DNA of 64,000 nt. Origin: Psychroflexus longus (GTDB lineage: Bacteria; Bacteroidota; Bacteroidia; Flavobacteriales; Flavobacteriaceae). The notes below the pieces were generated by a model that made no database searches, had not been told where the DNA came from, and was given only the letters and a program-made list of their open reading frames with translations. Shown here piece by piece: positions 3,918 to 32,259 of the stretch (position 1 is the stretch's first letter; each line of letters opens with the position of its first letter). The position numbers and the translations under genes were made by a program. The DNA is taken from positions 1 through 64,000 of the forward strand of contig NZ_JAIQZE010000010.1 of NCBI RefSeq assembly GCF_020164595.1, given 5' to 3'.

Positions 3918-4442
3918 ATGGTATCATCTTCAGAATTTTTAAACTATTTGGCTTATTTGCTTCCTGCACTTATTGCTGGTGGTATAGGCTATTATTTTTT
4001 TAAAACTTATGTAGATCACCAAAAGGAGATGCAGTATCTAGTCCTAAGGAAAGAAAATAGGAGTGAGGTTCTTCCATTGCGACTTCAGGCCTTTGAGCGT
4101 TTGGTGCTCTTTCTTGAGCGTATATCTCCAGGCCAGCTTTTATCTCGGGTAAAACCTGTAGGTGATGATAAATATGATTATGAAAATCTTCTTATTGCTT
4201 CTATAGAGCAGGAATTTGAGCACAATCTTGTGCAACAAGTGTATGTAAGTCAGAAATGCTGGGATGCCATAAAGGCTTCCAAAAATTCGACCATTTCACT
4301 TATTCGACATACGAATATGAGTGATAAAATCACCAATGCTCAAAAGTTAAGAGAGGTTATTTTGACAGATTTACTGGAAAAGTCATCTCCAAGCGACACA
4401 GGTATTGCTTTTGTTAAAAATGAGATCAAACATCTTTTTTAG
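3918..4442 (+). CDS. Conserved membrane-anchored protein of unknown function (possibly DUF7935)
   Basis: This 174-residue protein has one N-terminal membrane helix (about residues 8-28, YLLPALIAGGIGYYFF) followed by a soluble cytoplasm-facing part. The segment LPLRLQAFERLVLFLERISPGQLL near residue 52 resembles a conserved flavobacterial family I associate with DUF7935, whose function is unknown. It stands alone on the plus strand and its TAG overlaps the stop codon of the convergent aminopeptidase gene by four bases. No catalytic motif is visible. Confidence 0.75.
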   Translation: MVSSSEFLNYLAYLLPALIAGGIGYYFFKTYVDHQKEMQYLVLRKENRSEVLPLRLQAFERLVLFLERISPGQLLSRVKPVGDDKYDYENLLIASIEQEFEHNLVQQVYVSQKCWDAIKASKNSTISLIRHTNMSDKITNAQKLREVILTDLLEKSSPSDTGIAFVKNEIKHLF

Positions 4443-6517: not shown

Positions 6518-6521
6518 GTTC

Positions 6522-6529
6522 CAAAGGTA
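6522..6529 (-). promoter_or_regulatory. -7 box TACCTTTG four bases from the aminopeptidase ATG
   Basis: TACCTTTG matches TAnnTTTG exactly on the minus strand and is separated from the ATG at 6517 by only GAAC. Transcription should begin at or within a base or two of the start codon, implying a leaderless mRNA. There is no clear -33 TTG. Confidence 0.5.
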
Positions 6530-6541
6530 AGGCTTGGCCAT

Positions 6542-6573
6542 AAAAAAAACCTGCTAGAATTCTCTAGCAGGTT
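6542..6573 (-). terminator. Terminator of the first SusCD operon
   Basis: A perfect 11-bp stem (AACCTGCTAGA / TCTAGCAGGTT, loop ATTC) is followed on the minus strand by eight U residues. The same hairpin recurs after the other two SusD genes at 12906-12935 and 18185-18214. Confidence 0.92.
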
Positions 6574-7498: not shown

Positions 7499-9172
7499 TT
7501 AATTATTAACAGGGAAACCAGTGGATGGGTTATTATCCCAAAATACTTTCACTGTTAAATCATCCTTCTGAGATACGTTTGGATTAGCAGTAACTTCTGT
7601 TGCTGGATACCATAATGTTCTTGGTAGTAATCCTGGATTTGGTTCAACACTTGGCTGAATATCTGTCGGTGCCCCAGTTCTTCTATAGAAGTTGTAGGCA
7701 TCAGTGCCGTTACCGATCAAAGAAATAAAGAACTGCTCTCCAATGATGTTGAGTTGTTTTTCTGCATTTGCAGTATCAAACTCATCAATAACTTCTGTGA
7801 CGAAGCTTGACACTTCCGCGTTGGTTGGAATTGTCGATTCATCAAAATCTGCTGCACTTCTAGAGGTAAACGACTGAACATAGTTTATATGTTTTACCAT
7901 AGCATTTTCTAAAAGCTGAGATGCTGTACCTGGATCATTATCTATCTCCAATGCGATTTCTGCTCTCCAGAAATCAACCGTTGAGGCTAACAAAATTGGA
8001 GTAATTCCAGCACCATTTGCACCGTAGTTATTTCCATCAATAATTTCAAAACTGCTGTCGTCAAAACGACCGCCTGCTGGGTAAATTCCAAAAGCTGTTC
8101 TTAAGAATCCATCTGGCGGAATACCATCATCTTGTCCATGATCTCTACCCCATAAACCTCTATTGTCTTCAGGAAAACAATATAAGATATTGTTGTTTGC
8201 ATAATGCGGGGGTATAGTTTGTATAATACAACGCTTCTCTGAACCAGAATCCGGATCTACATTGGAGACCACATCATCTACTTGTCTGTAAAAGTAATAA
8301 CGAATTCTTGGATCTTCAGTAGTCTGGCCATTTCTCATTTGGTCCATTAACCAATTCGACATATACCATGTATCCGGACCACCTGGGGCATACTGGACGT
8401 TATAAATAGGATGTCTTGAATTTGGATTATCGAGGTTTTCTCCCCAGTTGAAAACAAAGTCTTCCCCTTCTTGAATATAGTTTCCTCCGCTTACAATGGT
8501 TTGAAAATCATCAATTGCAGATGGATTGACCAATCGCTGTTGAAAATATATTTTCATTTTTAAAGTGTTAGCTAGCTTAACCCATTTGTCATAGTCTCCT
8601 CCATAGTAAAGATCATTTGCTATATTAACAGTAGTTGGTTCATTAAGCTTTACAATAGCATCATCCAAAAGATTTAAAGCAGCTTGATAAACATCAGCTC
8701 CACTATCTACTGCTGGATTTAAAATTGCAGGATCCAGACCTTCTGAGTAAGGGATATCACCAAAATAATCTACTAAAGTTACTACGATATAGGCTTCTAT
8801 AACTTCACCGACGGCTCTATGCTTTTCAAATTCACCTTCTAAGCCATCTATTTGCTGGTTCATTGCACGTATGTCGCTCAAAATATCCGCATAAGCTTGG
8901 TTCCATACTCCGCTAAATGTAGCAGGACCAAAAACGTTAAGATAAGTTCTGCCAAACATATTTCTTATTCTAGTAAATCTCGAACCATAAGAACCCATTG
9001 TATTTGTAAAATCTCCAGTTCTTACTAAAATTGCATTCATAGATAAGTCGATATCAGCTTGATCTGGACTTAATTCGTTTGGGTTATTTAGTTTGTCTAG
9101 GTCTGTAGTTTCACACGAAAAAAGTGTAAGTAGACCTAGCATCAAAATAACAGTATATTTTATGTTTTTCAT
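7499..9172 (-). CDS. SusD/RagB-family nutrient-binding lipoprotein (SusD-like_2 type), unit 1
   Basis: This 557-residue protein is the outer-membrane lipoprotein lid of a SusC transporter, capturing substrate outside the cell. The signal peptide ends LFSC (Cys20). The features DLDKLNNPNELSPDQ, YGGDYDKWVKLANTLKMK and a C-terminal FWDNNP segment are typical of the SusD-like_2 group, which differs from the classic SusD of the middle unit. It begins 12 bases after the SusC stop at 9185 and is followed by the lipoprotein, forming one operon that ends at 6542. The substrate cannot be read from sequence. Confidence 0.93.
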   Translation of the reverse strand: MKNIKYTVILMLGLLTLFSCETTDLDKLNNPNELSPDQADIDLSMNAILVRTGDFTNTMGSYGSRFTRIRNMFGRTYLNVFGPATFSGVWNQAYADILSDIRAMNQQIDGLEGEFEKHRAVGEVIEAYIVVTLVDYFGDIPYSEGLDPAILNPAVDSGADVYQAALNLLDDAIVKLNEPTTVNIANDLYYGGDYDKWVKLANTLKMKIYFQQRLVNPSAIDDFQTIVSGGNYIQEGEDFVFNWGENLDNPNSRHPIYNVQYAPGGPDTWYMSNWLMDQMRNGQTTEDPRIRYYFYRQVDDVVSNVDPDSGSEKRCIIQTIPPHYANNNILYCFPEDNRGLWGRDHGQDDGIPPDGFLRTAFGIYPAGGRFDDSSFEIIDGNNYGANGAGITPILLASTVDFWRAEIALEIDNDPGTASQLLENAMVKHINYVQSFTSRSAADFDESTIPTNAEVSSFVTEVIDEFDTANAEKQLNIIGEQFFISLIGNGTDAYNFYRRTGAPTDIQPSVEPNPGLLPRTLWYPATEVTANPNVSQKDDLTVKVFWDNNPSTGFPVNN

Positions 9173-9184
9173 TGTAGTTATTTT

Positions 9185-12100
9185 TTAAAATGTTGCTCTT
9201 AAAGTAAATCCATATCGCTTTCCGCTTGGGCCGTTTAGAAAATCAAAGCCTCGACCATTACCCACTCCAGTACCTATGATGTTTGGATCAAAGTTTACCC
9301 CATCCGGAGTATTTGGAGCATTATACCAAAGGTTATTACCTTGAACTGATAAAGATAAATTACCAAAAGGTGTTGAATCTAGCCATTCTTTAGGAAATTT
9401 ATAAGTTAAAGATACCTCTTGTAAACGAACAAATGAGCCATCGTACACTTTTAACTCATCTGGCGCACCAATACCAAATACATCAAAATAGTAAGTGGAA
9501 TTGTTGATTTGGATATCATTTGGCTGTCCTGAGTCAGCTAGTACACCTGGAAGAATGTAAGTATCTAATCTGTTTTCTGTATCTGTTGTTACCCCTCTAC
9601 CTAGCATGGTTGCAATGGTGTTGGAGTAAATATCTCCTCCATGTTGGTAACTAATTAATGCATTGAATGTGAAATTTTTGTAAGATAAAGTTGTGCTGAA
9701 GTTAGTTAAGAAATCAGGTGTAGCATCTCCAATGACATTAGGTCCGTTATCTATGACGTAAGTACCCTGAGAATTCACCAATGGGTTTCCATCCTCATCT
9801 CTAGCAACCGACGATCCAATCATTGTGCTAAATGGTAGGCCTTCAATAGCTGCGTTTCCTAAGTTTGAAAATCCAGAATAAGGAATGGCGTTATCTACGG
9901 GGTCATCAGTTGGTTCCAAACCAAGATCTGTAACATTAGAACGTATCTTAGTGTAATTCAAATTTACATTCCAATTTAATCCTGTTCCATCATTTTGAAT
10001 GACGTCTATTCCTAAATCTCCTTCAAAACCATAACCCTGGATTTCACCAATATTAAACTGTGTTGAAGTGAAACCAGTAGTTGGAGCTAAAGGTCTATTG
10101 ATTATTAAGTCCTGTGTATTTCTCTTGAAATAAGAAAAGTCCAGTGATATTCTATTGTCTAGAGCTCTAGCCTCTAATCCAATTTCATATTCTTCATAAA
10201 GCTCAGGCCTAATGTCTGGATTAGCTAAGACTCTTGATAAAGAGTTGCTTGCTATTGGCGTACTGCTTCCAGCTGATTGGAAAAATCGTGTATTTAAAGG
10301 TAGCGTATTTACCGTAGGAAATCCTGAGGCAAAACCAGCAGAGGTACCATATCCTGCTCTAATTTTTAAGTAATTCAGTCCATCTTGACTTCTTAAGTCT
10401 GAAAAAGCAGATGTTGGAAGAAAGGATACACTTGTACTTGGATAAAATTGAGAGTTATTCTCTTGATTTGACACCCAATCGTTACGAGCTGATAAATTAA
10501 AGTATAAGTAATCCTTATATTCAAAATCGGCAACTCCATATACACCTACAATATTTTGAAAAGTTTCAAATTGTATAGGTGATTGCTGTCTAAAGTTGAA
10601 ATGCCTAAATACATCAAAAACAATTTGGCCAGAGCTTCTTACACCGTCTCTTTGAAATTTGTTGTATCTAGATGTAGCACCTAGAGTAAAATTTACATTG
10701 AGATCTGATGTTAAATCATATTCACCATTCAATTGGAAGTTATGATCCCATACGATATTGGTGTTTGTAAAAGAAGAATATTCTCCAAGAACTGGACCTA
10801 TTGTAGCACCAATATTAGTACCTGTCTCGTTACGTTCTGAATAGATATCTAAACCACCTCTGTATAAAAAATTCAAACTTTCATTTATTTCATACGTTAG
10901 TGTATTAGCAGTATTAAACCTAGAAGTTGTTTGTCTTACAAAACTATTATTGGCAACCCATCTTGGGTTTGGAATTGCTTCATCGTTTCTATAATAAACA
11001 CTAGCACCAGTCACGGGATTCTGGAAAGGAATCTCCATTAATGGAATGTTTCTAGGGGTAAAAAATATATTTGAATATACAGACAATCCATCACCCGTTG
11101 TACTGTTACCATCGCCAAGGGCTACAGGAGGTGTTTTAAAGTCAGTTCTTGAGACGTTAATTGTACTATTAACAGTTAGCTTATTTGATAATAGAGCTCT
11201 GCCTCCTACAGAAAAGTTAGTTCTGGATAGACTGTTGTTAGGAGTAAATCCTTCATCATCTAGATGTCCAAAATTAACATTGTAAGAAATTTTACCATCT
11301 TCTGAAGTTTTCCCTATGTTCACTGAAGTATTTTTTACTAATCCAGTTCTAAAGAAGTCTTTTACGTTGTTTGGCTGGTTTTCCCATTGCAATGTTGCTC
11401 CTTGAAACTCTGGAAATACGTCTGCTAAATTAGCTCGGTTATAAGGATGGTTATAAGTTCCATCAGCATTAATTCCACTTCCTTGTTGCGGATATCCACC
11501 AAAACCCTCGGCATTAAAACCAGGGCCCCAGTTTGAAAAAAAGTTTCCAAAGGCACCATCAAATCCATTACCATACTTACTGTTATAGTCCGGTAATGAA
11601 GCTATTTCATTGAAGAAAATTCCTTGTGAAACAGAGACTTCACTTTTCTTTTGTCTTTCCCCAGCAGAACCAGCTTTGGTAGTGATTAAAATCACCCCGT
11701 TTTTTCCAGCAGAACCGTAAACAGTTGCTGCAGCAAACCCTTTAAGCACAGATACGCTTTCAATGGAGTTTGGATCTAAATCTAAAGATCGTGAAGATCC
11801 TGCGTTACCATCTTCAAAATCACCAACTCCATTGGTGTCGTTTGAAATTGGCACACCATCTACAATGAATAAGGGTTGGTTGCTACCATTTATAGAAGTA
11901 TATCCTCTAATATTAATGTTGGTTGCAGATCCAGAAACACCGCTAGAGTTGTTAATCACAACCCCGGAAGCCTTACCTTGTAATACGCGTCCTAAATCAC
12001 CTTCAGATCGGTCTTCCAATCCTTCTGACTCAACAGCACTTACAGAATAACCAAGAGATTTCTTTTCTCTACTCGTACCAAAACCAACAACGACAACTTC

Positions 12101-12406
12101 ATCAAGCGCTTCTCCTGATTCCATTTGAACATTGATTTCAGACTTGTTACTCACAGCAATGGTCTGCGTTGTAAAACCGATGTAAGAGAACTCTAATTGT
12201 TGAGTAGGCTCCACATCGATGGAGTAATTTCCATCAAAATCGGTTTGTGTTCCTTGTGTTGTTCCTTTCACCAAAACATTAACTCCCGGTAATGGTAAAC
12301 CAGTGTTATCGGTAACCGTACCGGTTACCGTTTTGGTCTGTGCAATACTGAATTGCACCGTTAATGCCAGAAAGAGCATTAAAATTCCATTTAACTTTGT
12401 TTTCAT
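9185..12406 (-). CDS. SusC/RagA-family TonB-linked outer membrane transporter, unit 1
   Basis: This 1073-residue protein is a TonB-dependent channel that pairs with SusD. In order it has a signal peptide (to about residue 22), a carboxypeptidase-regulatory-like beta-sandwich (residues 24-100, VTGTVTDNTGLPLPGVNV), a plug with the SusC signature SIESVSVLKGFAAATVYGS and GVILITTKAG, and a 22-strand barrel ending in the aromatic RATF. After the first domain comes VVVGFGTSREKKSLGYS, a lineage mark shared with unit 3 but not unit 2. A consensus promoter lies at 12436-12466. Confidence 0.96.
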   Translation of the reverse strand: MKTKLNGILMLFLALTVQFSIAQTKTVTGTVTDNTGLPLPGVNVLVKGTTQGTQTDFDGNYSIDVEPTQQLEFSYIGFTTQTIAVSNKSEINVQMESGEALDEVVVVGFGTSREKKSLGYSVSAVESEGLEDRSEGDLGRVLQGKASGVVINNSSGVSGSATNINIRGYTSINGSNQPLFIVDGVPISNDTNGVGDFEDGNAGSSRSLDLDPNSIESVSVLKGFAAATVYGSAGKNGVILITTKAGSAGERQKKSEVSVSQGIFFNEIASLPDYNSKYGNGFDGAFGNFFSNWGPGFNAEGFGGYPQQGSGINADGTYNHPYNRANLADVFPEFQGATLQWENQPNNVKDFFRTGLVKNTSVNIGKTSEDGKISYNVNFGHLDDEGFTPNNSLSRTNFSVGGRALLSNKLTVNSTINVSRTDFKTPPVALGDGNSTTGDGLSVYSNIFFTPRNIPLMEIPFQNPVTGASVYYRNDEAIPNPRWVANNSFVRQTTSRFNTANTLTYEINESLNFLYRGGLDIYSERNETGTNIGATIGPVLGEYSSFTNTNIVWDHNFQLNGEYDLTSDLNVNFTLGATSRYNKFQRDGVRSSGQIVFDVFRHFNFRQQSPIQFETFQNIVGVYGVADFEYKDYLYFNLSARNDWVSNQENNSQFYPSTSVSFLPTSAFSDLRSQDGLNYLKIRAGYGTSAGFASGFPTVNTLPLNTRFFQSAGSSTPIASNSLSRVLANPDIRPELYEEYEIGLEARALDNRISLDFSYFKRNTQDLIINRPLAPTTGFTSTQFNIGEIQGYGFEGDLGIDVIQNDGTGLNWNVNLNYTKIRSNVTDLGLEPTDDPVDNAIPYSGFSNLGNAAIEGLPFSTMIGSSVARDEDGNPLVNSQGTYVIDNGPNVIGDATPDFLTNFSTTLSYKNFTFNALISYQHGGDIYSNTIATMLGRGVTTDTENRLDTYILPGVLADSGQPNDIQINNSTYYFDVFGIGAPDELKVYDGSFVRLQEVSLTYKFPKEWLDSTPFGNLSLSVQGNNLWYNAPNTPDGVNFDPNIIGTGVGNGRGFDFLNGPSGKRYGFTLRATF

Positions 12407-12648: not shown

Positions 12649-12942
12649 ATAAAGCAAGATTTAACTTAAAAATGAATTCAAGATCAAAAGACAAAAATTA
12701 AGACCGATTTTGATTAGAGATCTTTTATGAGATACCATTTAATTTTAAATATTTAATTAAGTCTGAAATTATATCTTGATTTTATCCCTTTTAGGAGTAC
12801 GTATTTATTTTAAAAAAAGGATCTTATTGGATTTTTTGAAAACTATGATATCAAGTAAAAATCAATTTAAAAGGTTTAATCCATCTTTAAGGGTGATTTT
12901 CAACCAAAAAAAACCTGCTAGATATTCTAGCAGGTCTTGATA
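12649..12942. repeat. Non-coding direct repeat, copy A (about 290 bp)
   Basis: This intergenic segment aligns along its length with 17941-18222 in the same orientation; by eye roughly four bases in five agree, with small indels (one of about 11 bases near 12745). Conserved blocks on the plus strand include AAGACCGATTTTG, AGAGATCTTTTAT, AAGTCTGAAATTAT, AACTATGATATC and the terminator hairpin at its right end. No reading frame is conserved between the copies, so it is not a protein gene. The two copies bracket the second SusCD unit precisely. Confidence 0.85.
12906..12935 (-). terminator. Terminator of the second SusCD operon
   Basis: The stem CCTGCTAGA / TCTAGCAGG with loop TAT is followed on the minus strand by a run of eight U residues. 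It ends the SusC-SusD pair 12965-17740 and is the right end of repeat copy A. Confidence 0.9.
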
Positions 12943-12964
12943 CTAAGTTAAAAGGATTATTAGT

Positions 12965-14608
12965 TTAATTCTGATCACTTGAGCTTAAGTTTGGATTTGC
13001 GTTAATTTCAGCCTGAGGAATCTTAAAGATCCAATCGTCATTTATTGATGGTCTATCGATTTGATAGGCTTGCTGGTAAAGAACTTGAGAAGCTCCAGAT
13101 CCACCATCTGCAGCATGATCTATATTTTCATCCCAACGTATTTTATCGGTATATCCAAAACCTTCACCCCAAAGCTCTAATCGTCTTTGAAACTTGATTT
13201 GTTCCATTAACGTTTGTTTGGTGTTAAATACGGAAACATCAAAAGCGCTGTCCCTTTCGTTAACTAAGGCCTCAAGTGCTATTTGAGCATTTGGAATATC
13301 ATCCATCATCGCTAAGGCTTCAGCTTCAATTAGATACATTTCTGAAGATCGCATATAAATGACATCATCTGGATCAATTGTACCAGGATTTGCATTCTTT
13401 AATTTGAAATGCATATATGGATGTTGATTAAAACTGTTTGAAATACCATATTCAGCATTAATCTCAGCTCTACGTGCATTAAATTCGGCCTGGTCAGTAT
13501 AATTAGGATCATTTCCAAACCCACCTTGTCCATTTGCAGCTGATGTATTTGTGTTTGGTGCATCCACTATAAAAACTTTACCTCTATAGTCTGTTTCAGG
13601 AATAGCATCTACCAATCTACGGTCTGCTATTTTAGGATTATTTCTTATCTGACTTCCATTGAATGTATTACTGGCTAAATAGAAATAAGATCTAAAAAAT
13701 GTAGTTTCAGCTTCTATTACATGGCTTCCCCAAATCACTTCTGAGAGTTCATTAGAATTAAAACCAGAAAGCCAGTCAGCTTCATTCATTAAAGGGTAAT
13801 CTTGTCTTGCAGCTACTGCAGATGCTGCAGCAGTTTCCCAGTCTCCTTTAGATAAAGCCCATCTTGCTCTAATGCCATAAGCCACATCAATATTCAATTG
13901 AGATTTTGCTGCAGCTCCCGAACCAGATCTTCCTGTACCGTTTTCAAATGCTGTTATAGCATCGGTCAAATCACTTCCAATTTGGTCGTATATATCTTGT
14001 ACACTTGACCTTGGTTGACTTGTGAACGGAGATTCTGAAGAAAATAATAATGGTACACCTGGATCTGTTTCTGGATTACCAATCAGATAACCTTTTGCGT
14101 AATGTTGTACTAAAGAAAGGTAGGCCATAGCTCTATAGGTATAAGCTTGACCTAATATTTCATTAAGTCTCGCTGTTTCAGTAAATCCACTTTCAGCAAT
14201 ACCATTAATTAAAAGATTTGCGTGTAATATGATGTTGTAACGGTGATACCAAAGTAATTCAGTTGTTAAAGAGGTTTGAACTGTGTGATCATTCCATTGC
14301 GCATTGGTTCGCCATCCGAGATTATTGGCGTTTGCAGAATGAATAAGATAACCTGCTAAATTGTCGCCCATTGGTACCCAGTAATGATCATTAGCCCTCC
14401 CAGTGTTACCACCAGGGAAAACGGTTTGTGATTGAGAATATAAGCCCCTGTGTACACCGTTTAAAACAAGTTGCATATTGTCAACACTTGCAAGTGCATC
14501 GTCAGCCGATATCGCATCGGTAGGAGTTCTCTCTAAGAACTCGTCTTCGCATGATAGTACTGGAAAAAATAAAGCAGCCAGTAGTATAAGTTTAATTTTA
14601 TTTATCAT
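12965..14608 (-). CDS. SusD/RagB-family lipoprotein (classic SusD type), unit 2
   Basis: This 547-residue protein has a lipoprotein signal ending VLSC (Cys20) followed by EDE, acidic residues that fit a surface-export signal. It has the classic two-part SusD layout: N-terminal TPR-like helices (EILGQAYTYRAMAYLSLVQHY) and the C-terminal RSSEMYLIEAEALA and FQRRLELWGEGFGYTDKIRW motifs. This lineage differs from the SusD-like_2 proteins of units 1 and 3. It sits 12 bases after its SusC, and no third gene follows before the terminator. Confidence 0.95.
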   Translation of the reverse strand: MINKIKLILLAALFFPVLSCEDEFLERTPTDAISADDALASVDNMQLVLNGVHRGLYSQSQTVFPGGNTGRANDHYWVPMGDNLAGYLIHSANANNLGWRTNAQWNDHTVQTSLTTELLWYHRYNIILHANLLINGIAESGFTETARLNEILGQAYTYRAMAYLSLVQHYAKGYLIGNPETDPGVPLLFSSESPFTSQPRSSVQDIYDQIGSDLTDAITAFENGTGRSGSGAAAKSQLNIDVAYGIRARWALSKGDWETAAASAVAARQDYPLMNEADWLSGFNSNELSEVIWGSHVIEAETTFFRSYFYLASNTFNGSQIRNNPKIADRRLVDAIPETDYRGKVFIVDAPNTNTSAANGQGGFGNDPNYTDQAEFNARRAEINAEYGISNSFNQHPYMHFKLKNANPGTIDPDDVIYMRSSEMYLIEAEALAMMDDIPNAQIALEALVNERDSAFDVSVFNTKQTLMEQIKFQRRLELWGEGFGYTDKIRWDENIDHAADGGSGASQVLYQQAYQIDRPSINDDWIFKIPQAEINANPNLSSSDQN

Positions 14609-14620
14609 ATCTATAATTTT

Positions 14621-17600
14621 TTATAGTGAAATGTTTAACCCTAGGGATATAATTCTTGGAGCAAAAAAGTTGTTAGCTGGAGAGGTGCCCGCTAAATTGA
14701 ATTGAGGATCGAGTCCATCTCTTTTACTTTTAAAATAAAGGTTTTCTCCTGTTAAGTTTACAGTCAAATTATCTAAGCCTAATTTTTCGACCATAGAGCT
14801 GTCGAATCTATAGCTAAGACTAGCATTTCTTAAGTTAATATAAGAACCATCTGTTAAAAAGCGATCAGATTGAGTTTGAACTAAAAGGACATTTCCATTT
14901 TCTAATCGTGGTACATCTGTAATGTCTCCAGGTTGTCTCCAGGCATTTAAAATATCAGGATGTGAGGATCTTCCATAAGCACCCGCGTGCATAAGGTCGG
15001 CGTAACCATTGTCTAAAACACTTCCTCCAATACCATAAGTAATCAATAGATCTAGCGTAAATCCTTTATAGCTGATTGTATTAGCAACAGAGCCAATAAA
15101 ATCTGGAATTGAAGAATCTCCTGTATATGCTCTCTCTGTTTCTGTCCAATCGTTGGTCGTTAATTGATTTCCATTAGCATCTAAGACTGGAATACTCTCG
15201 TTGTTTGCGTCAAGTTCGTATTGTAAGTATAACTGGTCTCCCGTAGCTGGATCGACTCCTGCAGTTCTAAAAAGGAAGAAATCAAATCTAGATACTCCTT
15301 CAGCCCATCGTTTACTTCCATTAATGAATGGATCTGGTAGACTTGTGATTTCATTTTTAAGCGTTGATCCTAATAAGGTTAAATCCCATTTAAGTTCATC
15401 GGTATTAACCATATGACCAGTCAAGGCCATTTCCCAACCAGAATTGTAAAGGTCTCCAGCGTTTACTGGAACCACATTCAGTCCGTTACTAGGTGCAATT
15501 GGAAGATTGTAAAGTAGGTCAGTAGAATTTCTTCTATAATATTCAACAGAACCATCTAAAAAGTTATTGAATAAACCAAACTCTAAAGCCACATCATAGC
15601 TTTCTGTGGTTTCCCACTGTAAATCCTCATTTCCGATATCAGTAAACAATATTGCAGGATTTGCAGCATTAGAGGTGATGTTGAATCTAGCTTGTGAGAG
15701 ATAAGAATCTAAAAGATCGTCATTACCTACTTCACCATAAGAGCCTCTTATTTTTAGCTGATCTATCCAATCTATCTTCTGTATAAATTCTTCCTGATCC
15801 ATTCTCCATGAAGCTCCAACAGAGTAAAAATTACCCCATCTGTTTTCAGACTGGAAAACCGAAGAACCATCAGCTCTAACAGATGCACTTAAGTAATATT
15901 TGTCATTGAAGTTGTAATTTCCTCTAAAGAAATAACTTTCCAAAGACCTGTCGAATGTTGCTCCATCTAAGTCTACAATGTTTGAAAAATTAGCAAATTC
16001 AAATATGCCGCTTGCAGCCTGAATCGTTGCCAAACCATCCAAATCACTAATAGAAGTTTCGTAGCTCTCATGACCAGCAGTCAAGTCTAAATTATGAAAA
16101 CCAAAACTTTTCTGATAAGTTAGAAGTTGGTTAAAAGTTTCTGTATCACGTCTTGCCCGTCTTTGATCTAAACGACCAACTGGCTGAGCATCTCCAATAA
16201 TTGGGTTTTCGTATTGACTTGCAAAAAAGTCAGTTAAATCTCTACCATAATTTAATTTAAAGGTCAACCCATCTATGATTTCATACTCACCAAACAAACG
16301 TATACCATATGTATTGTTTTGTTCGAGTTCACGATTTAAAGTTAATTCTTGAATCGCGTGTCTTCCTTGATTCGTTGGTCGTGATCCAATTCCAAAGTCT
16401 GGGAAGCCTTCTCCACTATCCCATAAAGGAGCACCTACTTCATCTAAAACTATGTTTCCATCTCTATCGTTGACAAAAACTGGATAGATAGAACCAATGC
16501 CTTGTGCAAAGCTAAAAGGGTTAACAATACTACCTGTTCCTGCAGAACTTGGTGCTCTTGCTTCAGTTAAAGAAAGGTTTGTACTACCACCGACCTTAAT
16601 TTTATCAGTGACCTGAAAATCGGCATTCAATCTAGCAGTGAATCTGTCAAAACCTGAAGTGATCACATAACTGTCTTCTTCCAAATATGAAGCAGAGAAA
16701 AATACAGAGTGATCTTCCCCGCCTCCAGATACATTCACATTATAATTTTGTCTTTGTCCAGTTCGCTCCAATTCCTCAAACCAGTCTAAGCTTTTGTAAA
16801 TGAGTTGAGCATTAGGATTGAGTCTACCATCGGTTCCTACAATTTGATCGTTGGCCACATTGAAGGGGTTATAACCTAATTGATTGTAGATGTTTGCACT
16901 AGCAAAAGCAGCGTCTCCATTGGCAGCAGAAGAATTTCTTAGAGCTTCCCACATTGTTTCATAATATTGACCTGGATTCACCTGATCATATAATGGTCTA
17001 CCTCTATTTATAATACTGGATTGAGCAGAAGCACTTACTTTTATTGCTCCTTTGGTACCGCTCTTTGTTGTAATGATAACCACACCATTAGCAGCTCTGG
17101 ATCCATAAATAGATGTTGATGCGGCATCTTTTAGAATAGTGAAAGACGCTATATCTTCCTGGTTCAATGTATTTAAAGGCGCATTATATTGTACTCCATC
17201 TACGATATACAAAGGATCAGTATCGCCATTTAGTGTTCCAACACCTCTAATGACTATTCCTGGAGAATCCCCAGGGCCTGTGGGTGTTGTAAATTGCACA
17301 CCTGTTGCTCTACCTTCGATAGCTTCAATTGGAGAGGTCACATTACGGGTTTCCAATTGTTTTGAAGAAATTACACTTGCAGAACCTGTAAAAGATTCTT
17401 TAGAGGCTGTTCCATAGGCGACAACAAAGACTTCATCTAAGGATTCACCAGTCTCTAACTGGATGTTGATTTCTGTTCTATCACCAACACGAACGGTTTG
17501 GGTTTGAAACCCTACGTACGAAAATATGAGTTGCTGGTTATTGTCCACTTCAATGGAATAATTTCCATCAAAATCAGTTTGTGTACCACTCGAAGACCCC

Positions 17601-17740
17601 TTAATAAGCACATTTACACCAGGTAATGGCAAGCTTTCTGAATCTGTAACAGTTCCAGTAACCGTCTTGGTTTGAGCAATTGTTACTTGCACCACAAACG
17701 CTAAAAAAAGCGTCATAAATCCATTAATTTTTAATTTCAT
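14621..17740 (-). CDS. SusC/RagA-family TonB-linked transporter, unit 2
   Basis: This 1039-residue transporter has the signal peptide, regulatory-like domain (VTGTVTDSESLPLPGVNV), plug with SuSC signature DIASFTILKDAASTSIYGS and GVVIITTKSG, and a TonB barrel ending LNISL. The N-terminal 100 residues are close to unit 1, but from the plug onward it diverges (VVAYGTASKESFTGSASVIS), placing it in another SusC branch. The 5' leader matches the other two units, but the upstream TTG lies only 11 bases before the -7 box. The pair it forms with the SusD lies exactly between two direct repeats. Confidence 0.96.
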   Translation of the reverse strand: MKLKINGFMTLFLAFVVQVTIAQTKTVTGTVTDSESLPLPGVNVLIKGSSSGTQTDFDGNYSIEVDNNQQLIFSYVGFQTQTVRVGDRTEINIQLETGESLDEVFVVAYGTASKESFTGSASVISSKQLETRNVTSPIEAIEGRATGVQFTTPTGPGDSPGIVIRGVGTLNGDTDPLYIVDGVQYNAPLNTLNQEDIASFTILKDAASTSIYGSRAANGVVIITTKSGTKGAIKVSASAQSSIINRGRPLYDQVNPGQYYETMWEALRNSSAANGDAAFASANIYNQLGYNPFNVANDQIVGTDGRLNPNAQLIYKSLDWFEELERTGQRQNYNVNVSGGGEDHSVFFSASYLEEDSYVITSGFDRFTARLNADFQVTDKIKVGGSTNLSLTEARAPSSAGTGSIVNPFSFAQGIGSIYPVFVNDRDGNIVLDEVGAPLWDSGEGFPDFGIGSRPTNQGRHAIQELTLNRELEQNNTYGIRLFGEYEIIDGLTFKLNYGRDLTDFFASQYENPIIGDAQPVGRLDQRRARRDTETFNQLLTYQKSFGFHNLDLTAGHESYETSISDLDGLATIQAASGIFEFANFSNIVDLDGATFDRSLESYFFRGNYNFNDKYYLSASVRADGSSVFQSENRWGNFYSVGASWRMDQEEFIQKIDWIDQLKIRGSYGEVGNDDLLDSYLSQARFNITSNAANPAILFTDIGNEDLQWETTESYDVALEFGLFNNFLDGSVEYYRRNSTDLLYNLPIAPSNGLNVVPVNAGDLYNSGWEMALTGHMVNTDELKWDLTLLGSTLKNEITSLPDPFINGSKRWAEGVSRFDFFLFRTAGVDPATGDQLYLQYELDANNESIPVLDANGNQLTTNDWTETERAYTGDSSIPDFIGSVANTISYKGFTLDLLITYGIGGSVLDNGYADLMHAGAYGRSSHPDILNAWRQPGDITDVPRLENGNVLLVQTQSDRFLTDGSYINLRNASLSYRFDSSMVEKLGLDNLTVNLTGENLYFKSKRDGLDPQFNLAGTSPANNFFAPRIISLGLNISL

Positions 17741-17768
17741 GTTTTTATTTATTTGAATTAGCCAAACA

Positions 17769-17776
17769 CAAACCTA
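17769..17776 (-). promoter_or_regulatory. -7 box of SusC unit 2 with short spacer
   Basis: TAGGTTTG on the minus strand is followed by TTTGGCTAATTCAA as in unit 1. The nearest TTG (17790-17788) is only 11 bases away instead of 20, as if about nine bases were lost between the two boxes. Confidence 0.5.
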
Positions 17777-17940
17777 AACTAAATTAACAATATATTTATG
17801 TTAAATTTATTTTTTTAAAAAATTATATAATAATCTGTTAAACAGGTTATTATATAAAAGCTATTTATTTATAACACCAAAAATGTTAATTTTAAATCCT
17901 AATAAGAAAAACAATTTTAACGTTCTTTATTCTTACTTTT
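17777..17940. other. AT-rich upstream region without a gene
   Basis: No reading frame, tRNA or strong hairpin is visible in this stretch between the -7 box of SusC unit 2 and repeat copy B. It does not contain the nested inverted repeat found at the equivalent place in front of unit 1. Confidence 0.5.
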
Positions 17941-18222
17941 AATAAAGCCAGATTTAACTTTAAAATGAATTCAAAATCAAAAGACAAAAAATAAGACCGA
18001 TTTTGGTTAGAGATCTTTTATAAAATACCATTTAATTAAGTCTGAAATTATTTCTTGATTTATTTTTTTTAGAGATCATGTATTTATTTTAAAAAATGAT
18101 CTAATTGGACTTTTTGATAACTATGATATCGAGTAAAATATAATTTAAAATATTTAATCCAGATTTTTAGAGTGATTTTTAACCAAAAAAAACCTGCTAG
18201 AATTCTCTAGCAGGTCTTGATA
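17941..18222. repeat. Non-coding direct repeat, copy B (about 280 bp)
   Basis: This is the second copy of the element at 12649-12942, same orientation, ending like copy A in a terminator hairpin and the bases AGGTCTTGATA. A 15-codon frame present here on the minus strand is destroyed in copy A, so coding function is unlikely. The distance between copies is about 5.3 kb. Confidence 0.85.
18185..18214 (-). terminator. Terminator of the third SusCD operon
   Basis: The stem CCTGCTAGA / TCTAGCAGG with loop ATTC and a minus-strand U-run ends the pair 18243-22911. Stem and loop are identical to those of the hairpin at 6542-6573. Confidence 0.9.
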
Positions 18223-18242: not shown

Positions 18243-19676
18243 CTAATTCACATCCCAGAAGATTTGGGTTTGTTGTGTGTCTCCTCCAATAGCTTGAGAA
18301 GCTTCATTATAATTTGCTTCATTCAAATTTTGCTCATTAACAGGATAAGTATATCTCACTGGTACTGGATTTCCTGTAGATCCGGGTAGATTTAAATTTG
18401 GTTCGTTGTATTTTCTCCAAGTTGACCATCCTTCCAAAGGATTATCAAACATAGCAATCCAAAATTGAGTTCCTATTAAAGTATTGGAGTTCGAAGGATC
18501 ATAAGAAACATTCGGTTTGCTCAAATAAGCATCAATAGCATCTTGGTCATCAATACCAGCATAATTCATAGATGCTGTAATAGCATTGTTATAATGTGTT
18601 TCTGCATCACCAAAAACATTATAATTTAATTCTGATGCAGTTGCTAAATGAAATGAAACTTCAGCAAAATCTAAATATATACCTGCATGTGTTGGATCTC
18701 TAAAGGCTTCCCCTATATGAGTCGATCCAGAAAATGGATTTTGAGACCCATAAATACCTCCTTCATAAACACCATCTCCTAGGTTTTGATCGAAATAGTA
18801 GGTTCGTCTTGGATCTTCCAGATCGTTCATGATATCAACTATAGTATTTGCTGCAACATAATCGGATCTTCCGCTTTGTACTAAATCTTCCCACAATGGG
18901 TTGGTATTAGGCGGTGAACTTTGGTAAGCTATTATCGCATTATCTTGATTTCCTGTAAAAACTCCTTTACTAGCGGCATCTTCTGCAGCGCTTTTTGATA
19001 AATTTGGATTACTATCAGAAATTCTCATTGCTAATCTAAGTTGAAGAGAGTTATTGAATTTACTCCATTTACTCATATCTCCTCCGAATATTACATCTGG
19101 ACCGACAAATCCTTGTCCAGAATTTAACAATGCACTTGCAGCTTGAAGTCTTTCTATAAGATCTTCATATATTACGGCATCATCTTCGTAAGCTGGAAGT
19201 GTATTTGTTTCTGCCTGTAAAGCTTCATTATAGGGTATATCTCCAAAGGTATCAACCAAAACTTGCCATGCATAAACTTGAATAACTTCAATTTGTCCTA
19301 TACGTGCATCCTTCTCACTTTGAGAAAGATCAGAATTATCATTGATATACCCTTTAGCGTCATCAAGATCTAATAAGATATCTCTATATATTTCAGACCA
19401 CTGGGACTGAGGTATATTTCTGTTTGTCAAGTCATAATTTGGCTCATCTACGTAAGTTGTAGCTGTGAGGTACTGACTTACGAATCTAAAAATATTGATG
19501 TTTACATTTGGGCTTGCCAAAAAGTCTCCCAAACTCACCGCTGCCGAAGTAAATAAGAAGTCTTCTGATACTTGGGTTGGATTTTTTGGGTCTTGATTGA
19601 GCCTTTCGTACTTTTCATCATCAGAACATGATGCGAAAAGAAAGGCTACCGTTAATATGATTAAGTATTTTTTCAT
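18243..19676 (-). CDS. SusD/RagB-family lipoprotein (SusD-like_2 type), unit 3
   Basis: This 477-residue protein has the lipoprotein signal ending FASC (Cys17) followed by SDDE, a good acidic surface-export signal. FGGDMSKWSKFNNSLQLRLAMRIS and the C-terminal YNEASQAIGGDTQQTQIFWDVN are typical of SusD-like_2 proteins. It pairs with the SusC at 19687 after a 10-base gap. It is shorter than its unit 1 relative (557 residues), mostly in loop regions. Confidence 0.94.
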   Translation of the reverse strand: MKKYLIILTVAFLFASCSDDEKYERLNQDPKNPTQVSEDFLFTSAAVSLGDFLASPNVNINIFRFVSQYLTATTYVDEPNYDLTNRNIPQSQWSEIYRDILLDLDDAKGYINDNSDLSQSEKDARIGQIEVIQVYAWQVLVDTFGDIPYNEALQAETNTLPAYEDDAVIYEDLIERLQAASALLNSGQGFVGPDVIFGGDMSKWSKFNNSLQLRLAMRISDSNPNLSKSAAEDAASKGVFTGNQDNAIIAYQSSPPNTNPLWEDLVQSGRSDYVAANTIVDIMNDLEDPRRTYYFDQNLGDGVYEGGIYGSQNPFSGSTHIGEAFRDPTHAGIYLDFAEVSFHLATASELNYNVFGDAETHYNNAITASMNYAGIDDQDAIDAYLSKPNVSYDPSNSNTLIGTQFWIAMFDNPLEGWSTWRKYNEPNLNLPGSTGNPVPVRYTYPVNEQNLNEANYNEASQAIGGDTQQTQIFWDVN

Positions 19677-19686
19677 TTTTTATTGT

Positions 19687-22600
19687 TTAAAAATTAAACC
19701 TAAGATTAAGACCATATTGCTTCATTGCTGGATACGCTCCAGACTGATAGCCTTGTACATTACCAGAACTCAATCCAGCTTCAGGATCTGAATACGGTAA
19801 GTTTTTATCAATAATCCATAGATTTCTACCTATGAATGAAATAGAAGCGTTGGTAAATGGCAATTTTTCGAGAATTTTATCGCTGAAATCATAAGTAAGA
19901 CTTAATTCTCTAAGCTTTATGTAAGAGGCATCATAAACGTGCCCTTTGTTCGCATCACGTGCATACCCGTAAGGATTAGCATAGGTATCAAAAGGAACTC
20001 TTGTTTCGTTTTGGGATCCATCTGCATTTACACCTGGTAAAATTATACCACCGCTATCAGCTCCTCCAGTTAATGGTGCTCTCATCTCGTTTCCAAGATC
20101 ATTTATACCTGCTGTGACATCATAAACTCCGGTAGCCATTCCGTACCAAGTATCTAATGAAAAGATATCTCCTCCTTCTTGTATATCAATCAAGAAACTA
20201 AATCTGAAATTTTTATATCTAAATGAGTTTGTGATACCTGCATTCCAATCTGGCTGAATGTTTCCAATTACGTTATTATTAGAATCTGTTGTTTCGTAAT
20301 AACCGTCGCTATTTACGATTTTACTTCCATTTTCATCGTAAACATAATCAGTTCCTCTTATCGCTCCATATGGTTGACCTGGAGCTGCATTAATTGAAAC
20401 TCCTCCTTGCAGGCTTGCCAGTTGAAGGTTATCGACTCCATCTGTTAGGCTTATCACTTCATTTCTATTTCTAGACCAGTTTACACTAACATTCCAGTTG
20501 AAATCATCCATCTGTACTGGCTTACCACTAAGAAGAACTTCAAAACCTTTGTTTTCTATCTCTCCTGCGTTAAGAAGTTTTCTTGTGTAACCTGTGGCAT
20601 TAGAAACAGGAACAGGAGTGATTTGATCCTCTGTTCTAGTGTTGTAGTAAGAAAAATCTACACTTAATCTGTTGTCTATAAAGCTGGACTCTAAACCTAC
20701 TTCAAATGACTTAGAAGTTTCGGATTTTAATTCAAGATTATTGAGAGTTCCGTTCAAACTTGCAACACCTTGACCGTCAAATGGTGCTGAGACCAGGTAA
20801 GTGTTAAAAACTCTGTAAGGATCTGTTCCACTTCCTACTTGTGCATAGTTGGCTCTAAATTTTGCAAAACTCAACCAATACTTATCAATGATGTTTGATA
20901 ATAAAACACTTGTTGAAATTGATGGATAATAATAAGTATTGTCTGAACTTGGTAAAGTAGAAGATCTGTCTCTTCTCATGGTAGCTTCCATGTAATATGT
21001 GTTCAGGTAACCTAAACTTGCTCTGGCAAATATACCGTCGAGCATTTGGTCTGCTTCATATTCTGAAGGTGGATTTAGCGGATCTTTACTATTGCTCAAG
21101 GCAAAAAAGTCAGGTGCATTTAATCCTCCATTGGTGGATGCTCTGATAGATGATTGCTCATTTCTTCTCAAATTGAAACCAACATTACCATCTAAATTTA
21201 AGTCATCACTTAAATTTTTATTGAAATTTAAAATTAAGTCATAATTGTATTCAGCGACTCTGTTATCAAATCTTGAATACCCTGAAACTCCAACAGATCC
21301 AACATTTTTACGTTCTTCTTGTAGTTCACTGTATGTATCAAATGTGAAACGTCCTAAAACACTAAATACATCACTGATTTGATAATTCAAATTAATATTA
21401 CCAAAGTAGCGATTTCTAGTGTCTGTTTGGTAATTTTCATATCTCGTAAAATAGGGATTATCTGTATAGATTGGAGTCAAATTATTTGGACCGTTTGGAT
21501 TCCAAGTAATATTATTACCAGTAGCAAAATATGCATCTCTTTGTTTGTACAAATCAACGTTTGATTGATTCCATTGTCTAAATGATTGCATAACATTCAA
21601 AGCATCATAACCAGTACCATATCTTCCTTTTCCATCTGTTTTGATAAAGTTGAAATTAGAACTCACACTGAATTTATCAGTCAAATCATGAGATGCAGAA
21701 AATTTGATGTTGTTACGAGTGATGCTACTATTTGGTAAGGCTCCTTCTTGATCTAAATTTGTGAATCCAACTCTGTATGTGCTTTTATCGGTTCCACCAT
21801 CCAGTGCAACAGAATTGATCATTGTATAACCAGTTTCCCAAATGTCATTTGGGGTGTTTTTTCCAGCCACCCAAGGGGAAGCTTGTTGATAAGTGTCTAG
21901 CTCAGGATAGATAGAATTCCATTGATAAATCATTCTATCCGGGTCGAAAGCTGCACCAAAAGAAGCATCTTCTGTAAAAGGAGTTGTTTCATCTAAAACA
22001 CCATCACCGTTGACATCAAAAAGATTAAAATAACCATCTTCAGATTGATAGTATGGCCCATATCCAGCTCCATATTTTTGCTGGTAGTCTGGTAAGGTTT
22101 CATCATCTGCGTTAGAAAACATTACAGATGATCTTACGGTTACGCCTATACCTTTGTTTTTTTGTCCCCTTTTAGTTTCGATAATGATCACACCATTAGC
22201 AGCTCTCTCTCCATAAAGTGCAGAAGCAGCAGCTCCTCGCAGGACATTGATGGATTCAATATCATCAGGATTGATATCCGCAGCAGCGTTCCCGTAATCA
22301 TACCCACCACGTCCTTGGGTTTGTCCTGTTGTGTTGGAATTTTGATTGATAATTGGCGTTCCATCTACTACAAATAAGGCTTGATTACTTCCTGTTAATG
22401 AAGCATTTCCTCTTATTACTACATTGGTAGAACCTCCCATGGTACCCGAAGATTTTACCTTAAGACCGGCAACTTTACCAGATAAAGCGTTTGTAAAATT
22501 TTGTGTTGCTACATCAGAGACTTCATTTCCTCCGACCTCTTGAGTCGCATAGCCTAAAGATTTCTTCTCTCTTTTTATACCCAAAGCAGTTACAACAACT

Positions 22601-22911
22601 TCATCAAGTTGACCCGTATCAGGTTGTAATGTAATGTCAAGGCTTGTTTTAGTCCCAATATTTACTTGTTGTTCTTTCATTCCTAAATAGGAAAACACCA
22701 AAGTAGCGTCATCACCAACTTGAAGGGTAAATTCTCCATCAAAGTTAGTCTGAGTACCATTAGTTGTTCCTTTTTCAATGACGTTAACACCTGGTAAGGG
22801 TAATCCAGTGTTGTCAACGACAGTTCCTGTCACTTCTTGATTCTGCGCTAACCCCACATGGGAGATTAAAGCGAAAACGAATAAAAAGATCCAATTTGCA
22901 TTTTGTTTCAT
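19687..22911 (-). CDS. SusC/RagA-family TonB-linked transporter, unit 3
   Basis: This 1074-residue transporter has a signal peptide, the regulatory-like domain (VTGTVVDNTGLPLPGVNV), a plug with DIESINVLRGAAASALYGE and GVIIIETKRG, and a barrel ending LNLRFNF. The post-domain segment VVTALGIKREKKSLGYAT places it with unit 1. A TTG-N20-TAGTTTCG promoter is found at 22941-22971 and the leader again contains TGGCTAATTCAA. It is the first gene of the tandem set in transcription order. Confidence 0.96.
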   Translation of the reverse strand: MKQNANWIFLFVFALISHVGLAQNQEVTGTVVDNTGLPLPGVNVIEKGTTNGTQTNFDGEFTLQVGDDATLVFSYLGMKEQQVNIGTKTSLDITLQPDTGQLDEVVVTALGIKREKKSLGYATQEVGGNEVSDVATQNFTNALSGKVAGLKVKSSGTMGGSTNVVIRGNASLTGSNQALFVVDGTPIINQNSNTTGQTQGRGGYDYGNAAADINPDDIESINVLRGAAASALYGERAANGVIIIETKRGQKNKGIGVTVRSSVMFSNADDETLPDYQQKYGAGYGPYYQSEDGYFNLFDVNGDGVLDETTPFTEDASFGAAFDPDRMIYQWNSIYPELDTYQQASPWVAGKNTPNDIWETGYTMINSVALDGGTDKSTYRVGFTNLDQEGALPNSSITRNNIKFSASHDLTDKFSVSSNFNFIKTDGKGRYGTGYDALNVMQSFRQWNQSNVDLYKQRDAYFATGNNITWNPNGPNNLTPIYTDNPYFTRYENYQTDTRNRYFGNINLNYQISDVFSVLGRFTFDTYSELQEERKNVGSVGVSGYSRFDNRVAEYNYDLILNFNKNLSDDLNLDGNVGFNLRRNEQSSIRASTNGGLNAPDFFALSNSKDPLNPPSEYEADQMLDGIFARASLGYLNTYYMEATMRRDRSSTLPSSDNTYYYPSISTSVLLSNIIDKYWLSFAKFRANYAQVGSGTDPYRVFNTYLVSAPFDGQGVASLNGTLNNLELKSETSKSFEVGLESSFIDNRLSVDFSYYNTRTEDQITPVPVSNATGYTRKLLNAGEIENKGFEVLLSGKPVQMDDFNWNVSVNWSRNRNEVISLTDGVDNLQLASLQGGVSINAAPGQPYGAIRGTDYVYDENGSKIVNSDGYYETTDSNNNVIGNIQPDWNAGITNSFRYKNFRFSFLIDIQEGGDIFSLDTWYGMATGVYDVTAGINDLGNEMRAPLTGGADSGGIILPGVNADGSQNETRVPFDTYANPYGYARDANKGHVYDASYIKLRELSLTYDFSDKILEKLPFTNASISFIGRNLWIIDKNLPYSDPEAGLSSGNVQGYQSGAYPAMKQYGLNLRFNF

Positions 22912-23064: not shown

Positions 23065-24153
23065 TCATCTAAATATCGACCAGTCCAATTTTAAAGAGAA
23101 AACATTGGAGTATAAAGCAAGACTTTGGTCGCCAATATCGGTAAGGGCATAGTCAATTTGTATGCCTTTATACTTGAAGCCAACTCCAAAGTTGGGCTGA
23201 AAACCAAGCTCGGTGCCGTTTCCTCCCAGTTGCTCCAGATTTTGAAAATTGCCAACGCCTCCTCGCAGATAAACTAAATTGACATAGCCTACTTCAAAAC
23301 CAAAAGCAGGGGTAGCACTTAACGTACCGGAGGAGATCACGTCGTTGGTTTGCGCAAATCTCATGTCAAGATTTAAAGAAGTGTTCAAGTCAAAATCTCT
23401 TGTAATTGCAGTTTTTCTTGCAATCCCAATTTGAAGTTTTGGTAAAGTGATTTCTGAGGTTTCTGGCATTGACTGATTTTGACCTTCTATTGCATTCTGA
23501 ATTGTAGCTAATTCAGAATCATCAAAAGTCCATGTATTGTAGGTGGTTGTAATGTCTCTTGCCATTACACCGAAGTACCAGGAGTTTTTTTGAAATTGAA
23601 TTCCAGCATCAAAACCAAATCCCCAGGCATTGGCAAAATCGCCAATGACTCTTCTTATGATTTTGGCATTCACGCCATAAGAAAATCCTTCAAGAGGTAA
23701 ACTTCTGGCGTAAGATAAAGTAAAAGCATAGTCTGCTGTCGAGAAAAGACTTATGCGATTGTAATCAATATTGCCCTGTTCGTCTATAAGTTGAGTTGTA
23801 TTTAAAATGTCATCTACACCAAACCTTATTACGCTAAAGCCAACAGCGCTTCTACGGTCAATCGGCATCGCACCAGCGACATAATTGTAAGTAGCAATAT
23901 TGGCAAAATAATTGGCATGCATTGCAGAAACTTGATTGTCTTCCAGATGAATCAAACCAGCAGGATTCCAATATCCAGAATTCACATCACTCGTAGTAGC
24001 TGTTACAGCGTTTGCCATTCCAAAGGAAGCGGCATCCACACCAATGTTTAAGAATTCGTTGGAATACTTTGCTGTCTGTGAAAAAGCAAAAAATGTAGAA
24101 AACGAAATTAATATGAAGGTAAGCCTCTTCAATCTTGTAATTATTTTGAGCAA
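23065..24153 (-). CDS. PorV/PorQ-family outer membrane protein
   Basis: This 362-residue beta-barrel protein has a signal peptide ending at FAFSQ (about residue 26). The N-terminal hallmark FLNIGVDAASFGMANAVTATTSDVNSGYWNPAGL (read in pieces near residues 34-68) is that of the PorV/PorQ family, members of which act in type IX secretion. It could be a non-secretion paralogue of the same barrel family. It is divergent from pssA with 67 bases between them; there is no terminator to the SusCD locus at 23064, so it does not appear to belong to it. Confidence 0.8.
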   Translation of the reverse strand: MLKIITRLKRLTFILISFSTFFAFSQTAKYSNEFLNIGVDAASFGMANAVTATTSDVNSGYWNPAGLIHLEDNQVSAMHANYFANIATYNYVAGAMPIDRRSAVGFSVIRFGVDDILNTTQLIDEQGNIDYNRISLFSTADYAFTLSYARSLPLEGFSYGVNAKIIRRVIGDFANAWGFGFDAGIQFQKNSWYFGVMARDITTTYNTWTFDDSELATIQNAIEGQNQSMPETSEITLPKLQIGIARKTAITRDFDLNTSLNLDMRFAQTNDVISSGTLSATPAFGFEVGYVNLVYLRGGVGNFQNLEQLGGNGTELGFQPNFGVGFKYKGIQIDYALTDIGDQSLALYSNVFSLKLDWSIFR

Positions 24154-32082: not shown

Positions 32083-32154
32083 TAGTCCGTAGGGGAATCG
32101 AACCCCTGTTACCAGGATGAAAACCTGGCGTCCTAACCCCTAGACGAACGGACC
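32083..32154 (-). tRNA. tRNA-Glu (UUC), copy 2
   Basis: On the minus strand the acceptor halves GGTCCGT and ACGGACT pair (with one G-U), the anticodon stem CCAGG/CCTGG holds loop TTTTCAT with anticodon TTC, and the T arm is AGGGG-TTCGATT-CCCCT. CCA is not encoded. It is identical to the copy 33 bases upstream. Confidence 0.96.
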
Positions 32155-32187
32155 GTGTTAATAATTTATTATATGAACTTAAACTTG

Positions 32188-32259
32188 TAGTCCGTAGGGG
32201 AATCGAACCCCTGTTACCAGGATGAAAACCTGGCGTCCTAACCCCTAGACGAACGGACC
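32188..32259 (-). tRNA. tRNA-Glu (UUC), copy 1
   Basis: This has the same 72 bases, cloverleaf and anticodon TTC as the copy at 32083-32154. It is the first transcript of the cluster, 16 bases after a full-consensus promoter. Confidence 0.96.

Follow-up and report, generated by a model that had tools for sequence, protein, structure and literature searches.

The SusCD island of Psychroflexus longus

The window analysed here, a 64,000-nt stretch of the 2.95 Mb genome of Psychroflexus longus (G000), was compared with 27 congeners. It contains three SusC-SusD (SusCD) units, transcribed from the minus strand in the order unit 3, repeat copy B, unit 2, repeat copy A, unit 1 and M1 peptidase gene (Table 1). 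The units are abbreviated u1, u2 and u3, with u1C, u2C and u3C for SusC and u1D, u2D and u3D for SusD. A partner with a SusD family domain lies directly downstream of susC in each unit, and membership of TIGR04056 was assigned by full-length matches above the curated cut-off of 368 bits. After the TonB box, SKESFTG is found in the SusC of u2, whereas REKKSLGY is found in those of u1 and u3; u2C also matches solved SusC homologues and RagA. Units 1-3 do not represent a distinct transporter type, and their novelty lies in how they are rearranged.

Table 1. Features of the SusCD island, with positions in the window
Feature	Position	Strand	Remarks
Conserved "23065 gene", one border of site S1	23065..24132	-	weak PorV match
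Unit 3 SusC (REKKSLGY type)	19687..22911	-	orthologous to G007, 97% aa; TIGR04056 649.1 bits
Unit 3 SusD (SusD-like_2)	18243..19676	-	orthologous to G007, 96% aa
Repeat copy B	17941..18222	-	unit 3 terminator and apparently duplicated intergenic DNA; lies upstream of unit 2
Leader of unit 2 SusC, outside repeat	17741..17940	-	only last ~90 nt like other susC leaders, including 24-nt block before ATG
Unit 2 SusC, 1039 aa	14621..17740	-	TIGR04056 740.7 bits; Winogradskyella-like, foreign body; Psychroflexus-like N-terminal ~107 aa
Unit 2 susC 5' module	17421..17740	-	signal peptide and PF13715 domain (N-terminal extension)
Unit 2 SusD (SusD-like_3/SusD_RagB), 547 aa	12965..14608	-	homology to P. 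curvus stops at stop codon
Repeat copy A	12649..12942	-	unit 2 terminator and intergenic DNA; with right flank, end-to-end alignment to the single G007 intergenic region
Unit 1 SusC (REKKSLGY type)	9185..12406	-	TIGR04056 550.1 bits
Unit 1 susC 5' module	12087..12406	-	own-genome best match of unit 2 module, 68% aa
Unit 1 SusD (SusD-like_2)	7499..9172	-	
u1E, third gene of unit 1, 290 aa	6613..7485	-	no family match
Terminator-like hairpin after unit 1	6542..6572	-	31 nt, 100% identical to 18185-18215 at copy B start
M1-family peptidase gene, other border of S1	4439..6541	-	follows the 23065 gene directly where S1 is empty (six congeners)

Over 301 aligned columns, 19 of them gap columns, the two repeat copies share 83% identity (E = 2e-82 in a search of the own genome). 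Each copy begins at a terminator-like hairpin about 20 nt past the stop codon of a susD gene, and the 31-nt core of this hairpin in copy B recurs unchanged after unit 1. Beyond the repeat, a dissimilar gap of about 100-150 nt is followed by renewed similarity between the two loci, which continues weakly for about 320 nt into both downstream susC genes. The whole similarity of the A and B loci spans 867 nt at 70.6% identity, and a sliding identity profile shows the same course. No third copy was found in the 2.95 Mb genome, where all other matches were the terminator (22-31 nt) or shorter. The first-pass annotation of the window had described A and B as direct, non-coding repeats in the same orientation with nothing but the SusC and SusD of unit 2 between them, and had separated the REKKSLGY-type SusC and SusD-like_2 pairs of u1 and u3 from a unit 2 with another plug and a classic SusD. 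This description was confirmed throughout, and with two copies only, the repeats are not scattered over the genome.

Inverted-repeat pairs of at least 60 nt were absent from the window. An Rfam scan of the window returned just two tRNAs, and the repeat matches no known RNA family; the two tRNA genes (32083-32259) are identical and stand in tandem, 105 nt apart. The repeat is unlikely to be a conserved regulatory leader needed by SusCDs, because only two of the 27 congeners carry it and the susC-proximal leaders lie outside it. A cassette-specific attachment sequence was likewise rejected on this narrow distribution and on the unrelated repeats that surround SusCD units of other species.

Origin of unit 2 and the single-repeat locus of a sister species

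In a tree of SusC bodies, the u2 proteins of P. longus and P. curvus CAK1W (G003) are sister to Winogradskyella (SH-aLRT 100), that of P. sediminis DSM 19803 (G013) groups with Flaviramulus (SH-aLRT 98), and that of G002 with Salegentibacter (SH-aLRT 99). The bodies of units 1 and 3 fall on the other main SusC branch (SH-aLRT 100). The u2 units of Psychroflexus thus represent three or more independent acquisitions. Between P. longus and P. curvus, the synonymous divergence (pS) of u2C and u2D is 0.56-0.58, below that of all eight vertical genes used as the reference set for this pair (0.68-0.87). Judged from the tree and these values, unit 2 was evidently acquired horizontally, from another bacterial lineage. 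This agrees with the first-pass annotation, which had assigned unit 2 to a foreign lineage; the body tree also bears out its view that units 1-3 are not one monophyletic group formed by tandem duplication. GC content is uninformative in this respect (37.6% in u2, 37.2% in u1 and 36.3% in u3), and no convincing source of the first ~110 nt of the u2 leader was found in the 27 congeners. A recent transfer of u2 between P. longus and P. curvus was also considered. The pS of 0.56 exceeds the 0.25-0.46 of vertical genes between the sister species P. longus and G007, indicating that the u2 event is not recent and pointing to an unsampled donor or an old event instead.

In G007, u3 is followed by one repeat-like intergenic region of 618 nt and by u1, and u2 is missing. 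Copy A and its right flank align with this region over its full length, whereas copy B matches about 280 nt and is then followed by an unrelated leader of about 200 nt. Of the informative sites in the repeat, 41 unite A and B to the exclusion of the G007 copy, and each of the two alternative groupings has 20. The G007 copy is not the B-left/A-right mosaic that a deletion would predict. Since A and B are sisters relative to the G007 copy and no deletion mosaic was seen, duplication and gain of u2 in the P. longus lineage appears likelier than loss in G007, barring gene conversion between A and B. The divergence of A and B (17%) is at least that of the vertically inherited upstream region of u3 between P. 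longus and G007 (12%), which suggests that the insertion event is old; gene conversion could mimic the sister relation of A and B. Present-day excision between the two copies seems unlikely because their longest exact match is only 22 nt.

The insert is flanked by direct copies of a sequence that is single in G007, with a downstream flank that is xenologous. The G007 locus is not a clean empty site, because G007, the one genome found with a single repeat, is another species, its downstream half of S1 has been replaced and its u1 is xenologous to that of P. longus (pS 0.72, compared with 0.25-0.46 for vertical genes). This downstream half (u3b and M1) derives from a G004-like lineage, with pS of 0.18-0.20 (0.20 for M1). 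For P. longus itself, one line of evidence, the sister relation of A and B against G007, points to a host origin of the duplicated DNA. The replaced segment of G007 (C12:108252-117670; L008/L009) contains the second unit 3 copy and M1 near the G004-type allele, and the other genes of G007 are G000-like; an IS-family transposase ORF (108862-110463) lies in the intergenic region. The first-pass annotation had proposed a cassette that can be gained or lost by homologous recombination between the repeats, leaving one of them. The expected one-repeat form without unit 2 does exist, in another species, and the site counts favour gain. Current excision or loss, by contrast, is at odds with 17% divergence and a 22-nt longest run, and as a description of present behaviour the cassette is not supported; the relation of A and B to the G007 copy argues for gain here.

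SusCD sites, probable insertion scars and a proposed mode of insertion

Two main SusCD sites were recognised among the Psychroflexus loci examined, in a survey covering the genomes whose loci were retrieved. S1 is the site in the window, with the 23065 gene and the M1 peptidase gene as its borders. It is empty in G001, G002, G003, G009, G013 and G026, and is filled with u3-u2-u1 in P. longus, u3-u1-u3b in G007, y-u3 in G004 and G025, and u1 in G015. S2 lies between rpsL/fusA with a porin-like gene and RlmB/RarA. It contains u1-u2-u3-x in P. curvus and P. sediminis, u1-u2-x in G021 (with u1 broken), u2-x in G002, u1 in G009 and G026, and another SusCD in P. longus, G007, G025 and G001. Unit 2 is therefore found at S2 in four congeners and at S1 in P. 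longus. Most relatives with readable context carry u2-type units at S2, and u2-type SusCDs occupy S2-like positions in Winogradskyella flava, W. echinorum, Flaviramulus, Salegentibacter and Tamlana. The usual presence of this type at S2 in relatives and other genera makes its place at S1 in P. longus unusual. With a peptidase gene at S1, a subtilase gene at S2 and no glycan-degrading enzyme recognised in the neighbourhood examined, the SusCDs of these two sites might import peptide instead of glycan.

Several minor features of these sites were recorded. S1 is bordered by the M1 peptidase (window 4439-6541), and the subtilase at S2 (L033 14579-16516) ends in a type IX secretion tail. The u1 SusC of G021 (C213:22277-25513; L036) is interrupted by one in-frame stop codon. 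In P. curvus, the region between u2D and u3C at S2 (G003:C31:133223-133544; L033) resembles the 3' end of the 23065 gene of S1, which suggests that unit 3 may have moved from S1 to S2 with the tail of that gene. In the single-contig genome G025, the 3' part of the 23065 gene is present three times (C1:3049358-3072543; L045, L091), once in the full gene and twice in fragments at 96% and 82%, and these copies flank unit y and an insertion of about 16 kb. Elsewhere in G025 (C1:1090365-1095829; L081), tandem paralogues of the S2 subtilase are separated by repeats of about 400 nt (87%).

Direct repeats around a SusCD unit are also present in three other species. In P. curvus, u1 lies between repeats of 665 nt with 97.6% identity (550 nt exact), which contain a 346-nt piece from the 3' end of the porin-like gene. 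In P. sediminis, u2 lies between 371-nt repeats with 98.9% identity and a longest exact run of 185 nt, and the insert carries part of a diverged second copy of u1E. Both cases come from draft assemblies. In G004, y is enclosed by repeats of about 517 nt (93.4%) that include the 3' end of the 23065 gene. The duplicated porin-like fragment of P. curvus is 97% identical to the species' own gene, and the duplicated 23065-gene fragment of G004 is 96% identical to its own gene; both show at most 77% identity to the other species compared. These identities make it clear that P. curvus and G004 each duplicated DNA of their own. With P. longus, four species thus have a repeat pair whose later copy stops a short distance upstream of a resident susC. 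The sequence of the repeat varies from species to species, and two copies were present in each genome that was searched (P. longus and P. sediminis); the repeats are therefore not attachment sites, nor are they mobile elements. The left ends of the repeats lie inside genes in P. curvus and G004 and between genes in P. sediminis, so anchoring at a terminator is not general. In P. curvus, the repeat ends close to the ATG, and over the N-terminal region u1 and u2 share only 57-80% identity; thus, the 5' module itself was not duplicated there.

The preferred reading, to which a probability of roughly 0.6 is assigned, is that unit 2 is a horizontally acquired operon inserted between the resident units 3 and 1 at the hotspot S1, duplicating about 290 nt of host intergenic DNA (B before it and A after it) in a homology-guided event. 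The repeats look more like the scar of an old insertion than like a cassette that is still being excised. An incoming unit may pair at homology common to neighbouring SusCD operons. One anchor would be the susC 5' module, comprising the end of the leader, the signal peptide and the N-terminal extension; the other, in P. longus, would be the terminator after SusD. Pairing in unequal register would double the stretch between the two anchors. It may have come about between sister chromosomes during DNA uptake, or a resident unit may first have been duplicated in tandem and one of the two then replaced. Both routes fit equally well. The P. longus genome encodes DprA, which is compatible with DNA uptake and alone does not prove competence.

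Among the other explanations, a block transfer is possible if rather unlikely. It would have brought B-u2-A, perhaps with u1, from an unsampled Psychroflexus donor already so arranged, by homologous replacement through the flanking units. Such a transfer would accommodate the xenologous u1 beside a vertical u3, and the G004-like block in G007 demonstrates replacement at the same site; however, no donor was found among the 27 congeners, and the arrival of the repeats would be explained but not their origin. A reversible cassette, in which RecA recombination at A and B takes unit 2 out and puts it back so that populations are mixed, is improbable. The repeats do flank exactly one unit and a one-repeat form is known from G007, but the divergence of A and B, their short exact runs and the lack of a mosaic in the G007 copy speak against it. 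Recombination between copies as divergent as A and B has probably ceased; the near-identical repeats of P. curvus and P. sediminis could still recombine, and reversibility is more plausible for these two species than for P. longus.

Tandem duplication and divergence, with the repeats as remnants of one duplicated operon and u2 as a diverged sister of u1, is very improbable: the bodies of u1 and u2 occupy different main SusC branches, that of u2 with Winogradskyella, and their SusD partners match different Pfam families, even though the similarity of the two units covers intergenic DNA and the 5' ends of susC. Duplication followed by replacement is possible and forms part of the best explanation. 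Hardly any credence is given to a composite transposon or MITE pair, in which A and B would be two copies of one mobile element. SusCD islands of relatives, such as that of G007, do include IS-family transposases, but the repeats differ from species to species, they have two copies in the genomes searched (P. longus, with both at this locus, and P. sediminis), no transposase lies in the insert and no inverted-repeat pair of at least 60 nt in the window.

The insertion reading can be compared with two known systems. In Region EE of Bacteroides fragilis, an intergenic susC/ragA shufflon, SusCD pairs recombine by inversion at repeats overlapping the susC start codon, and strains exchange whole SusCD sets (PMC5729914). 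The P. longus locus would resemble this shufflon in the proposed recombination of SusCD sets at repeats by the start of susC. The shufflon, however, uses large inverted repeats, DNA inversion and one invertible promoter, whereas P. longus has direct repeats and a leader for each unit; with no inverted repeats and no recombinase in the insert, the locus does not qualify as a SusCD shufflon. Transformation of Streptococcus pneumoniae creates tandem duplications by alternative pairing (PMC3784515). Those duplications are experimental, span 100-900 kb and arise at IS remnants, whereas the Psychroflexus duplications were deduced from sequence, measure 0.3-0.65 kb and accompany an inserted foreign operon. 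SusCD transporters decide which large nutrients Bacteroidota take up, and their movement between species is known, but few accounts exist of how a foreign SusCD is fitted into the genome of its new host. The present findings suggest how imported SusCDs become spliced into new genomes, with the scars as datable traces.

Host-type front ends on SusC bodies

The N-terminal region and the body of SusC were found to have different relationships. The distribution of Psychroflexus proteins requires 3 changes on the tree of the N-terminal ~107 residues and 8 on the body tree, all 8 forced by supported branches. When clades of the body tree were tested on the N-terminal data, with the groups chosen from the body relationships, the data rejected the grouping of G000/G003 u2 with Winogradskyella (p 0.0017), of G002 u2 with Salegentibacter (p 0.0001), of G013 u2 with Flaviramulus (p 3e-6) and of the two y orthologues (p 2e-59). 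In cross-genus SusC pairs, N-terminal identity is about 50% both where the bodies are relatives (mean body identity 68%) and where they are not (mean 26%). On these comparisons, the N-terminal ~107 residues evidently track the host genus and the body tracks the transporter lineage. The cleanest chimera is y in G025. Its first ~100 codons are 85-97% identical to the neighbouring u3, and the rest, in the stretch examined, is 87-98% identical to y of G004, which has a u1-type N-terminus.

The 5' homology that would guide insertion may also let incoming SusC bodies gain or keep a host-type N-terminal domain. More broadly, the chances are about even that SusCs of marine Flavobacteriaceae are routinely two-part proteins, in which a host-specific 5' module is joined near residue 100-115 to a travelling body. 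The 5' end would then serve as a homology handle that captures foreign SusCDs beside resident ones, fits the front end to the TonB, secretion or assembly machinery of the host and leaves repeats as scars. Host-type front ends on travelling bodies are the more interesting result here. No description of SusC N-terminus exchange was found in the open-access literature. The N-terminal extension (PF13715) precedes the TonB box; when it was deleted from Bt1763, growth on levan was lost, and specificity for a TonB partner has been suggested as a possible role (PMC7782687). That work tested one transporter, whereas in the Psychroflexus comparison the same domain follows the host genus and is exchanged independently of the body. 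The decoupling bears on the role of the extension: if it is host-adapted, swaps of the extension between hosts should matter and swaps of the body should not.

Within P. longus, the N-terminus of unit 1 is nearest to those of unit 2 (68%) and the S2 SusC (65%), with the others at most 51%. A specific conversion of the u2 N-terminus from u1 of P. longus was not borne out, as the closest relative of the u2 N-terminus is that of P. curvus u2, at 84% amino acid identity and a DNA identity of 0.67-0.82, below most of the body.
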